A stretch of DNA of 64,000 nucleotides from Desulfopila aestuarii DSM 18488 (GTDB taxonomy: Bacteria; Desulfobacterota; Desulfobulbia; Desulfobulbales; Desulfocapsaceae): assembly GCA_945863875.1 (NCBI GenBank), contig CAMBBS010000003.1, positions 62,001-126,000 of the forward strand, read 5' to 3'. The position numbers and the translations under genes were made by a program. A model generated the notes under the pieces. That model did not search any database and was not told the origin of the DNA. It saw nothing but the letters and a program-made list of their open reading frames with translations. Below are positions 24,512 through 27,904 of the stretch, one piece after another. Within the stretch, counting starts at the first letter, position 1. The number at the start of each line of letters is the position of its first letter.

Positions 24512-24807
24512 AGATTTTTCCGTCTCTGCATATCCTCGTATAAGCGTCAACTGCCCGGCCCTGCAGGACGGAGCTTGTGAAAGCAAGTTCCCCTGTTGAC
24601 CAGGCACAGCCAGGGCCGCACGGCTAACGGGCCACGTGAAGAAAGAAGAGAGAGGCACTCTGGAATGCTCCACCGGTTCCAGGCTCCGCGACAAGGGGTT
24701 CAACAGGTTGAGGGGGTTAGGCCGGTGGTGCTGGGACAAAACCTTTCATTTCCATTGCCGAGGTGGTTTTCACTCGCGAATGCGAAGAATTTTAAAGGTA
24801 ACTTTCA
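24512..24807 (+). ncRNA. Candidate HEARO / IscB omega-RNA
   Basis: The 300 bp directly before the iscB remnant is GC-rich, has no ORF, and folds into nested helices. GTCAAC at 24546-24551 pairs with GTTGAC at 24595-24600 around an inner hairpin (GGAGCTTG 24570-24577 with CAAGTTCC 24584-24591, one G-U pair). CGGCCCTG at 24556-24563 lies inside the outer helix yet pairs with CAGGGCCG at 24611-24618 beyond it, giving a pseudoknot. A second hairpin (CTGGAA 24660-24665 / TTCCAG 24677-24682) has a loop CCACCGG that pairs with CCGGTGG at 24722-24728. Position and pseudoknotted layout fit HEARO, the guide RNA of IscB. Boundaries are approximate; a GTGA, the tetranucleotide I recall as a preferred insertion site, ends at 24511. 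Confidence 0.78.
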
Positions 24808-25221
24808 ATGCAGCATGTGTTGGTCATAGACAAAAACAAAATGTTTTTGATGCCTTGTCATCCGGCAAGGGCGAGGGAGCTTTTGCGCAAGGGAAAAGCT
24901 GCTGTCTATAAAAGATTTCCTTTTAAAACTTTGCTCCAGTATCCGGGATTGTGGTTGAAACAGTGCGTTTTGATAGGCAGTTCATGCAGCATCCTGAAAT
25001 TTCAGCTGTTGAATATCAGCAAGGGGAATTGGCCGGATACGAATAAAGGCAAAAAGCTCGGGACGTATGCTGGCAGGGTGTCTGCCCGAAAGCCCGGCAG
25101 TTTCAATACCAGGACAGAAGCAGGCACAATACATGGGATTTCATGGAAACCTTGCTCTCTTTTGCAGCGTGCCGATGGGCGTGGATTGCACCGCATTTTA
25201 TTGAGAGGGCATGCCGCTTAA
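24808..25221 (+). pseudogene. iscB: IscB remnant with RuvC and HNH parts deleted
   Basis: The 137-residue ORF is a scar of a roughly 400-500-residue IscB RNA-guided nuclease. Residues 1-42 match the PLMP domain ('VIDKNKMFLMPCHPARARE', 'RKGKAAVYKRFPF'). Residues from about 80 match the C-terminal domain ('KGKKLGTYAGRVSARKPGSF', 'GTIHGISWKPCSLLQRADG'). Between them, a second frame at 24951-25040 reads 'RFDRQFMQHPEISAVEYQQG' then 'ELAGYE' and a stop; in intact IscB this directly precedes the HNH domain. So two deletions removed RuvC-I with the bridge helix, and HNH with RuvC-III. The product cannot cleave DNA. IscB belongs to IS200/IS605-type elements and is the ancestor family of Cas9. Confidence 0.88.
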
Positions 25222-25313
25222 ATTCCATTTTCGACAAGAGTGACTCAATTCGACATTTACACATTACGGAACTCAACCGTGATGCGCTCATCAAACACAA
25301 TGGAGGAGAAGCA

Positions 25314-25838
25314 ATGGGTACGATAAAAAAAAATAATCCTGCTCTTCTGAAGGATACTTCTCCGGAGATACATGAAAGAGGCAAATCCAGTCGCACCGGA
25401 ATGAACCGGCAGGCACTGGCCCCGTCGTACCAGGACAATCTCCTGGAAAGACTCGCCGCCTGCCACATCGCTTCACTCTCTTCCATCGAGGTACCGGCGA
25501 TCGGCTATGGCATCCGTTACGAGTTCGGCATCTTGAAACAGGGAATCCAGAAGGGCTGGCGGGTCGCGTATACCGCCAAATGGCTCCAGCTGGGCGGCAG
25601 GACTGAAGGCTTTATCGACGCAAAGGGTAACTTCCGAGTGCGCCGGACTGCCGACCCGGCGGTGCTGAGGATTCCCTGCGACACCCCGATCCCCGGCTAC
25701 AAGGTCAACACCTGCAACATGTTGCGGCTGCGGAAGGCCGAGGCCTGCGAGTCCTTCGACTTTCAGTTCTTCAACGTCGGAGACTGTTACGGAACGGCGG
25801 TGTCCCTGACCGGCGGCGTGGGGAGGGACAGGCTATGA
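25314..25838 (+). pseudogene. Truncated glycogen phosphorylase (internal fragment)
   Basis: A 174-residue ORF with a very good ribosome site (GGAGGAG before the ATG) that matches a part of alpha-glucan phosphorylase. 'ERLAACHIASLSSIEVPAIG' and 'YGIRYEFGILKQGIQKGW' correspond to the well-conserved 'GRLAACFLDSLATL...IPAIGYGIRYEFGIF', and 'TPIPGYKVNTCNMLRLRKAE' plus 'CESFDFQFFNVGDCYG' correspond to the following part. The stretch 'NPWEIPRPE' between them is missing, and everything after about one quarter of the enzyme, including the PLP-binding Lys, is absent. It overlaps glgX by 4 bp (ATGA), so it could still couple glgX translation. No phosphorylase activity is possible. Confidence 0.82.
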
Positions 25839-27904
25839 CAATCGGACCAGGCAGAAGCAATCCATTGGGCGCCACCGTCTTTCCCGATGGGATCAATTTC
25901 AGCATCCTCTCAAAAAACTGCAGTGGGGTGGCGCTCCTTCTCTTTGACCATACCGAGGCAGCCAGGCCTTCGCGAGTTATCGAACTTTCACCGAAAATCA
26001 ACCGCACCTTTTATTACTGGCATGTCTTCGTGCCAGATCTCAAGGCTGGGCAACTTTACGGTTATCGGGTCAAGGGCCCCTTTATCCCGAAAAACGGCTG
26101 GCGCTATGACGGCGACAAGGTGCTCCTCGATCCCTATGCCAGAGAGGTGGCCGTTCCGAAATTGTTCAGCCACAAAGCAGCGGCCGAACCAGGCGACAAT
26201 ACCGTCGCCGCCATGAAAAGTATCGTCGCCGATCCTCGAGGCTACGACTGGGAGGGAGACCTCCCGCTCAATCGGCCGCTCTCACGTTCAGTGATCTATG
26301 AACTCCATGTGGGAGGCTTCACCAAGCATGACAACTCCGGGGTTACCCCGGAAAAACGTGGTACCTATGCCGGTCTCATCGAGAAAATTCCCTATCTGCT
26401 GGAGTTAGGGATCACTGCGGTTGAACTTCTGCCGGTCTTTCAGTTTGACCCCCAAGATTGCGCCGAGGGGCTGACCAATTACTGGGGGTATTGCCCGGTG
26501 TCCTTTTTCGCACCGCACAGCGGGTACAGCTTTGCCAAAGAACCGCTTGGGCCGATGCGTGAATTCAGGGACATGGTCAAAGCCATGCATCGGGCGGGGA
26601 TCGAGGTTATCCTTGACGTGGTTTTCAACCACACCGCAGAAGGCAATAACAGTGGCCCCACCTTCTGTTTTCGCGGTCTGGAAAACGGGGCATACTATAT
26701 CCTCGAAGAGGACAAGTCCCTGTATGCTAATTATACCGGGTGCGGCAACACGCTGAACGCCAACCATGCCATCGTCCGGCGGCTTATCATGGACAGCCTT
26801 CGATACTGGGTCTCCGTCATGCACGTCGATGGTTTCCGCTTCGATCTGGCCTCGGTGCTCTCCCGTGACGAAACCGGACAGCCGATGGAAAATCCACCCA
26901 TCCTCTGGGAAATCGAGTCCGACCCGGCGCTGGCCGGCACCAAGCTCATCGCTGAGGCATGGGACGCCGCCGGGCTCTACCAGGTAGGTTCTTTTGTCGG
27001 AGAACGCTGGGTCGAGTGGAACGGCAAGTTCCGCGACGATGTCCGCGGCTTCTTCAAAGGGGAACGGGGGACTGCAGGCAAACTCGCCTCAAGGTTTTTG
27101 GCAAGCCCCGACCTCTATCTGCATAACGACCGGGAACCGGAGCAGAGCATCAACTTCGTTACCTGCCACGACGGTTTTACCCTGAACGATCTGGTGTCGT
27201 ATAACGAAAAACACAACGAGGCTAATCTGGAAGGCAATCGCGATGGCGCCAACGACAACATGAGCTGGAACTGCGGCGTGGAAGGCGAAAGTGCAGACCC
27301 GGAAATTGAGCGGTTGCGCAACCGTCAGGTGAAGAATTTCCTGACCATCAACATGCTGTCACTGGGGGTGCCGATGCTGCTCATGGGCGATGAGGTTCGT
27401 CGCACCCAGCGGGGGAACAACAATACCTATTGCCAGGACAACGAGTTGGCCTGGTTTGACTGGTCTCTGCTCAACCGACACGCCGGCCTGCACCGCTTTG
27501 TGCAGAAGCTCATCGCCCTACGCCTCAATTTTGAAAGCTCGAAGGAGGATCTGGGCTTGACCTTAAGCCAGTTCCTGCAGCGTTCAAAAATAACCTGGCA
27601 CGGGGTGCGCCTCCAACAGCCGGACTGGAGTGAAGACGCCCATACTCTCGCTTTCACGCTTTCCAGTTTGAGCGGACGCCGCATATTTCACTTCATGGCC
27701 AACAGTTATTGGCAGCCGCTGGATTTCGAGCTGCCTCCGGCAACGGGGGAGGCCGAGCATAGCTGGCGGCGGATGATCGATACCTTCCAGGAGCCACCGG
27801 AGGATTTCCAGAAATGGTCGGACGCCCCCCGGCTTAACGGAGCGCACTATGCCGTTCAAGCCCGTTCAGTGGTTCTGCTGGCCAGGCTTGCCGATGCCTG
27901 GTAA
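25835..27904 (+). CDS. glgX: Glycogen debranching enzyme (isoamylase type)
   Basis: A full 689-residue GH13 enzyme. An N-terminal CBM48-type domain (residues 1-150, 'NPLGATVFPDGINFSILS') is followed by the barrel. The catalytic Asp lies in 'VDGFRFDLASVL' at about residue 336, the acid/base Glu in 'KLIAEAWDAAG' at about 373, and the third carboxylate in 'TCHDGFTLNDLVSY' at about 446. The 'GNRDGANDNMSWNCG' segment is typical of GlgX. It cleaves alpha-1,6 branches in glycogen or limit dextrin. GGGAGGG stands upstream of the ATG. The flanking phosphorylase and lactonase genes are truncated, so this is the only intact member of the cluster. Confidence 0.95.
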   Translation: MTIGPGRSNPLGATVFPDGINFSILSKNCSGVALLLFDHTEAARPSRVIELSPKINRTFYYWHVFVPDLKAGQLYGYRVKGPFIPKNGWRYDGDKVLLDPYAREVAVPKLFSHKAAAEPGDNTVAAMKSIVADPRGYDWEGDLPLNRPLSRSVIYELHVGGFTKHDNSGVTPEKRGTYAGLIEKIPYLLELGITAVELLPVFQFDPQDCAEGLTNYWGYCPVSFFAPHSGYSFAKEPLGPMREFRDMVKAMHRAGIEVILDVVFNHTAEGNNSGPTFCFRGLENGAYYILEEDKSLYANYTGCGNTLNANHAIVRRLIMDSLRYWVSVMHVDGFRFDLASVLSRDETGQPMENPPILWEIESDPALAGTKLIAEAWDAAGLYQVGSFVGERWVEWNGKFRDDVRGFFKGERGTAGKLASRFLASPDLYLHNDREPEQSINFVTCHDGFTLNDLVSYNEKHNEANLEGNRDGANDNMSWNCGVEGESADPEIERLRNRQVKNFLTINMLSLGVPMLLMGDEVRRTQRGNNNTYCQDNELAWFDWSLLNRHAGLHRFVQKLIALRLNFESSKEDLGLTLSQFLQRSKITWHGVRLQQPDWSEDAHTLAFTLSSLSGRRIFHFMANSYWQPLDFELPPATGEAEHSWRRMIDTFQEPPEDFQKWSDAPRLNGAHYAVQARSVVLLARLADAW

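Follow-up and report, generated by a model that had tools for sequence, protein, structure and literature searches.

Which mobile element left the short open reading frame (ORF) at 24808-25221 of a 64-kb stretch of the Desulfopila aestuarii DSM 18488 genome, and why do the damaged relatives of that element elsewhere in the genome keep their reading frames open? The stretch (contig CAMBBS010000003.1, positions 62,001 to 126,000; 64,000 nucleotides) is called the window below. An earlier note, made from the sequence alone, had read 24512-25225 as a relic of IscB, an RNA-guided nuclease, with its HEARO or omega-RNA still in place, and that reading holds. We conclude that the window copy is a dead IscB-omegaRNA (OMEGA) transposon whose omega-RNA is still recognisable, whose IscB was cut by two internal deletions and whose right end is lost. 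It belongs to a family that inserts before ATGA and often lies at host start codons, with the element's frame probably held open for the host genes that follow.

The element in the window

A covariance search placed HEARO (RF02033) directly 5' of the ORF on the forward strand at 92.3 bits, above the gathering cut-off of 83 (E 1.7e-17), and this was the sole Rfam match at gathering threshold across the window. The ORF opens with the PLMP start of IscB, as the note had it: its beginning matches positions 1-41 of Pfam RRXRR (PF14239, E 1.6e-10), and NCBIfam guided_IscB (NF040563) matches over residues 4-45 (E 6.6e-12, 45.2 bits, below the whole-protein cut-off of 175). The middle fragment suspected in another frame is also there (RRXRR 141-174, E 4.1e-7), and the end of the ORF proved to be IscB C-terminal sequence. 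Against an intact copy in the same genome, blastn aligned the window copy with element positions 1-380, 703-818 and 1391-1527, at 91, 96 and 90% identity. The ORF is accordingly made of three IscB pieces separated by deletions of 322 base pairs (bp; remainder 1 on division by three) and 572 bp (remainder 2), and positions 381-702 and 819-1390 are absent. Because the two deletions sum to 894 = 3 x 298, the start and end of the ORF share one frame and the middle does not. A small functional protein encoded by this ORF was considered and ruled out, since it consists of three fragments in two frames.

Similarity to the family stops at 25178. The right end, which in the family adjoins the probable target-adjacent motif, is missing, and the copy should therefore be immobile. 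It also lacks a complete RuvC and HNH nuclease, which the intact copy possesses (L054:1263-2567). The note named as refutation the lack of a HEARO hit and of IscB homology in the ORF ends and the middle fragment; HEARO scored above its cut-off and all three parts proved to be IscB, which supports its view of a mobile RNA-guided nuclease in decay. The span given for the relic was right, with flanking DNA at both sides (24512-24545, on the guide side, and 25179-25225).

The family in the genome

The note allowed that intact relatives might exist, and one lies in the source genome itself (G000, 4.69 Mb in 93 contigs). This genome carries 23 HEARO matches, 20 of them above the gathering cut-off, and 32 RRXRR matches, several per copy. 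We examined 26 copies, namely the 23 with HEARO and three more, on contigs C80, C53 and C43, that have iscB but no HEARO match; at least nine of the 26 are cut off at contig ends. The intact copy (G000:C4:61379-62977) encodes an IscB of 435 codons with RRXRR and HNH domains, scoring 446 bits to guided_IscB, and the copy on C77 matches the intact one at 98% identity across the 726 bases present on its contig. All others have internal deletions, several of them common to more than one copy. The recurring deletions measure 108 bp (an arginine-rich stretch), 174 or 270 bp (the HNH region), 240, 180, 177 and 116 bp, and in many copies either the arginine-rich stretch or the HNH region is missing, or both are. 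The copies C31 (L067), C7 (L063) and C4_80 (L056) have one frame-shifting 116-bp deletion near the 3' end in common, which in two of them puts the end of the frame 9 nucleotides (nt) before the ATG of the host gene.

HEARO was found in the source genome alone among 37 searched, with no match in 36 relatives, including 14 congeners (two of these less than 85% complete); in a sample of the phylum, 10 of 395 genomes had a match. Given its absence from the congeners, the family has probably entered this species and spread there mostly as internally deleted copies. The genome has 25 Y1_Tnp matches, five of them near full length and without stops. The intact copy has no Y1 transposase next to it, and the 12 TnpA loci fetched showed no similarity to the element ends, except for one locus that contains an element copy. 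A link between the ends and these loci was ruled out, the sole strong match (L087) being an element copy near a tnpA fragment. Transposition of the shortened copies in trans therefore stays an assumption. TnpA is absent from many IscB loci, according to the available portion of PMC9755519.

Element ends and insertion at host start codons

The element begins on the left with GTCAAC, the start of HEARO, and finishes on the right with ..CTGTAATTTTAG. Of the 17 copies that retain a right end, 16 continue directly with ATGA and one with TTGA. Related elements also end before RTGA, namely those of Scytonema NIES-4073 and an uncultured Scytonema (ATGA), Methanosarcina (GTGA) and Desulfofundulus (GTGA and ATGA). 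HEARO elements have been described earlier as lying at ATGA or GTGA. IsrB, a relative of IscB, prefers NTGA as target-adjacent motif (PMC9581776, in part), and by analogy ATGA is probably the target-adjacent motif of this family.

This motif is often a start codon. An ORF of at least 64 codons begins at the ATGA or TTGA codon in 14 of the 17 copies with a right end. After joining the flanks of each copy, we scored a gene start where an ORF of at least 60 codons had no in-frame ATG upstream and a stop at most 40 codons upstream. Ten of the 15 copies with both flanks satisfied this rule, compared with 21 of 128 window ATGA sites outside gene interiors (Fisher p = 8.5e-5). The host genes encode ArgJ, an Mrp/ApbC-type ATPase, a rhodanese plus metallo-beta-lactamase-fold protein, a rhomboid, a macro-domain protein, a SIMPL protein and an acetyltransferase plus nitrilase-type protein. 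Congener matches cross the empty junction of copy C10 in three genomes (67-70% identity) and that of C13 in one (78% identity, with a 15-base gap at the junction), and more matches are listed across the C29 and C7 junctions. Congener homology begins at the ATG or at most 4 bases from it in 4 of 6 matches for C18, 2 of 4 for C29 and 5 of 8 for C33. Surviving copies lie preferentially where ATGA is a host start codon.

At one of these sites argJ, which arginine synthesis requires, begins immediately after the right end of copy L077, whose sole deletion is the 108-bp one. No report of IscB at start codons, or of its frame being kept open for a host gene behind it, was found in the literature searched, which excluded the founding HEARO-discovery, ISC-transposon and OMEGA papers; the available portions of PMC9755519, PMC9581776, PMC9640706, PMC10666635 and PMC6728339 contain no link between the two.

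An open frame without protein constraint

Of the deleted copies, thirteen retain the iscB start as well as the right end. The iscB frame closes no more than 61 nt short of the host ATG, or passes it, in 12 of them, where 6.6 are expected if private changes are placed at random (P 2e-4; 0.0002 to 0.001 at thresholds of 32-200 nt). The gap between the end of the frame and the host ATG is 32 nt in six copies, 9 nt in three, and 58 and 61 nt in one each; in one copy the frame continues past the ATG. Outside this test, three copies that have lost the iscB start (C18, C72 and C33) have frames of 327, 193 and 191 codons, all ending 32 nt before the host ATG.

The amino acids, on the other hand, are not conserved. 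Private (singleton) changes fall on codon positions 1, 2 and 3 in the numbers 72, 75 and 71. By type they are 154 non-synonymous, 61 synonymous and 3 stop, compared with 156, 67 and 8 expected without selection under the same spectrum (231 changes), and the shared variants comprise 109 non-synonymous, 43 synonymous and no stop. The shortened IscB ORFs thus show no amino-acid constraint, their synonymous share being that of neutral change. This bears on the idea that the shortened proteins still function, for example in RNA-guided binding without cutting, as repressor or helper, and that the frame is kept for the protein's sake. Nuclease-dead relatives that act as regulators are known for TnpB, and frames of 238-399 codons do persist in deleted copies. 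However, amino-acid changes are as frequent as without selection among private and shared variants alike, and the arginine-rich stretch, the HNH region or both are gone from many copies; we consider a functional shortened protein very improbable.

What is depleted is the stop codon, and only in the reading frame. Among 392 unique variants, 3 create a stop in the iscB frame where 12.9 are expected (P 0.0011). The two other sense frames gain 19 (12.6 expected) and 17 (15.3 expected), and the antisense frames 11, 19 and 9 (7.8, 13.2 and 9.8 expected). The three in-frame stops occur in C4_5, which has lost its right end, in C72, which has lost its start, and in C7, where the actual frame is open at that point.

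Ordinary decay would explain the open frames differently, as young pseudogenes with too few changes to close them, and would put the excess of start codons down solely to the ATGA target motif and the loss of insertions within genes. The absent codon-position bias is indeed the pattern of a pseudogene, most of the events that disturb the frame occur in just one or a few copies, and an ATGA target would be expected from the NTGA preference of IsrB (PMC9581776, in part). The stop test, however, is a ratio and independent of age, and the start-codon comparison already leaves out gene interiors. A further comparison comes from a genome of the same phylum (G252) with 25 HEARO copies: stops interrupt 13 of its 27 RRXRR matches and 3 of the 32 in D. 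aestuarii (p 0.0011), a weak control in which ages are not matched. Ordinary decay is therefore an unlikely account of the whole pattern. G252 was dropped as a matched control for the stop test itself because of ragged 3' truncations and too little depth, and only its stop counts were used. In its HEARO copies (L243-L262) the left ends are intact and the 3' ends ragged and variable, unlike the D. aestuarii copies. Of the 25, 20 were fetched; many of these are cut on the 3' side, and among them no shared ATGA was seen at the right end.

Why the frame might be kept open

The open frame most likely reflects a need of the downstream host gene for translation across the element, as the sequence pattern suggests. 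The family inserts directly 5' of ATGA. Where this is a host start codon, omega-RNA and iscB frame come to lie within the host mRNA leader, and the host promoter would transcribe omega-RNA, iscB frame and host gene as one. Left untranslated, such a leader would be expected to bring premature (Rho-type) termination and poor initiation, and stops and uncompensated frameshifts in it would for that reason be selected against. The amino acids would be free to change because a deleted IscB would have no function.

A narrower version holds that the frame is kept purely for termination-reinitiation, with ribosomes that end the iscB frame restarting at the host ATG. The frame ends 9 nt before that ATG in 3 of 13 copies and overlaps it in one, and the minimum-energy fold of two of the three copies folded predicts a hairpin with the stop in its loop that would pair the Shine-Dalgarno-like AGGAAGAGG. 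Efficient reinitiation is not to be expected over 32 nt, the most frequent distance; in E. coli, 38 nt lowers it by 80-90% or fully (PMC10666635, in part). As sole cause termination-reinitiation seems improbable to us. Since reinitiation over 32 nt would be weak and the hairpin appears in two of three folds, we prefer relief of polarity as the explanation, perhaps aided by coupled initiation.

Several observations weigh against translation across the element as the cause. In the commonest form the stop precedes the host ATG by 32 nt, a poor fit to termination-reinitiation alone. Copy C29 precedes a host ORF of 145 codons, yet its iscB frame shuts after 39. The distinct large deletions in the frame region show no clear bias (8 of 17 are multiples of three), and small frameshifts are weakly and not significantly depleted (five across 13.5 kb of frame and six across 5.6 kb of RNA region, P 0.07). 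Copies C4_80, C4_71 and C57_18 are not at a visible gene start (ORFs of 11, 13 and 27 codons among them), and a Shine-Dalgarno-like motif lies left of 6 of 15 insertions, no clear excess over the 22% of background sites. The window copy, too, does not lie at any recognisable start codon, and its empty site was not found with the right flank (25179-25838) in 15 genomes, which gave two short congener matches only. Finally, the tests were devised after the data were seen, and the copies share ancestry.

We offer only tentatively, as a proposal that falls a little short of an even chance, the wider view that the family lives between leader and start codon. ATGA would be target motif and host start codon at once, the frame would be selected only for openness, and the element would serve as a translated leader, a path for ribosomes to genes like argJ, so that its remains could not decay freely and would be held by host need. 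The window relic itself is ordinary. If the proposal is true, the family is a natural example of a frame selected for being open while its protein is not under selection; tests of non-synonymous against synonymous change (dN/dS) miss this pattern, and it explains why broken mobile genes can resemble intact ORFs. It also suggests why NTGA-type motifs may suit IscB elements: insertion at a start-codon ATGA would gain a host promoter for the guide RNA with the least damage to the host gene.

Layout of the window copy

Downstream of the window copy follow a truncated phosphorylase frame (25314-25838) and glgX (25835-27904). The former, of 174 codons, is a truncated glgP that retains only N-terminal glycogen phosphorylase sequence (model positions 114-247 of 804) and ends on the glgX start.

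Table 1. Features of the IscB-omegaRNA relic, in window coordinates
Feature	Position	Strand	Basis
Flank 5' of element, at the place of the ~16-nt omega-RNA guide in IscB elements; putative guide	24530..24545	+	Position only, directly left of HEARO start
HEARO / omega-RNA, full model length 1-211	24546..24773	+	Rfam RF02033, 92.3 bits, E 1.7e-17, alignment
AAAGG, likely ribosome-binding site of iscB frame	24794..24798	+	Reading of the sequence
iscB piece 1 (PLMP part, ~residues 1-39)	24808..24925	+	Element 263-380; PF14239 1-41; NF040563 1-42
iscB piece 2 (RuvC-II region to HNH start), shifted by one frame by the 322-bp deletion	24926..25041	+	Element 703-818; PF14239 141-174, third frame
iscB piece 3 (C-terminal part), first frame again after the 572-bp deletion	25042..25178	+	Element 1391-1527
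Open frame, 137 codons, spanning all three pieces and ending in flanking DNA	24808..25221	+	ORF list and translation
End of similarity to family; right end (..CTGTAATTTTAG before ATGA) missing	25178..25179		Comparison with family copies

Comparison with known systems

In organization the family agrees with IscB-omegaRNA (OMEGA) or HEARO elements, with HEARO directly upstream of iscB, PLMP/RRXRR, RuvC and HNH in the intact copy, the omega-RNA at the left end with the flank as putative guide, and an NTGA-type motif at the right end. The guide of such an omega-RNA is at its 5' end and ~16 nt long (PMC9640706, in part). The family departs from these elements in that the window copy is missing its right end and most of the protein, and in that most copies in this genome are deletion derivatives at start codons whose frame is kept open.

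Relatives of the element, 50-64% identical, occur in cyanobacteria, Methanosarcina and Deltaproteobacteria, and the evidence for a start-codon habit across other genomes is mixed. No ORF of at least 50 codons begins at the RTGA of the Scytonema NIES-4073 and Methanosarcina copies that end there, and the habit is therefore not general, whereas two Desulfofundulus copies do open ORFs (279 and 66 codons) at the right-end motif. In five loci from other organisms (L117, L136, L109, L114 and L092), the extended iscB frame closes with the TGA of an ATGA at which another ORF of at least 52 codons begins, a four-base overlap.

Several of the derivatives resemble IsrB in lacking HNH, and IsrB uses an NTGA motif (PMC9581776, in part). 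They arise by deletion from an HNH-bearing IscB, however, and many lack the arginine-rich bridge-helix stretch that IsrB has. These deletion patterns rule out an assignment to IsrB; the window copy is also without the RuvC-I and bridge-helix region.

Ktedonobacter has stand-alone omega-RNA copies from which the protein gene is absent. Both there and in D. aestuarii many copies without a working nuclease occupy one genome, but D. aestuarii retains the frame. The family is also like the internally deleted, non-autonomous derivatives of insertion sequences (IS) and the miniature inverted-repeat transposable elements (MITE), in which shortened copies with shared deletions spread, presumably mobilised in trans. 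It differs from these in that its reading frame stays open without constraint on the protein.
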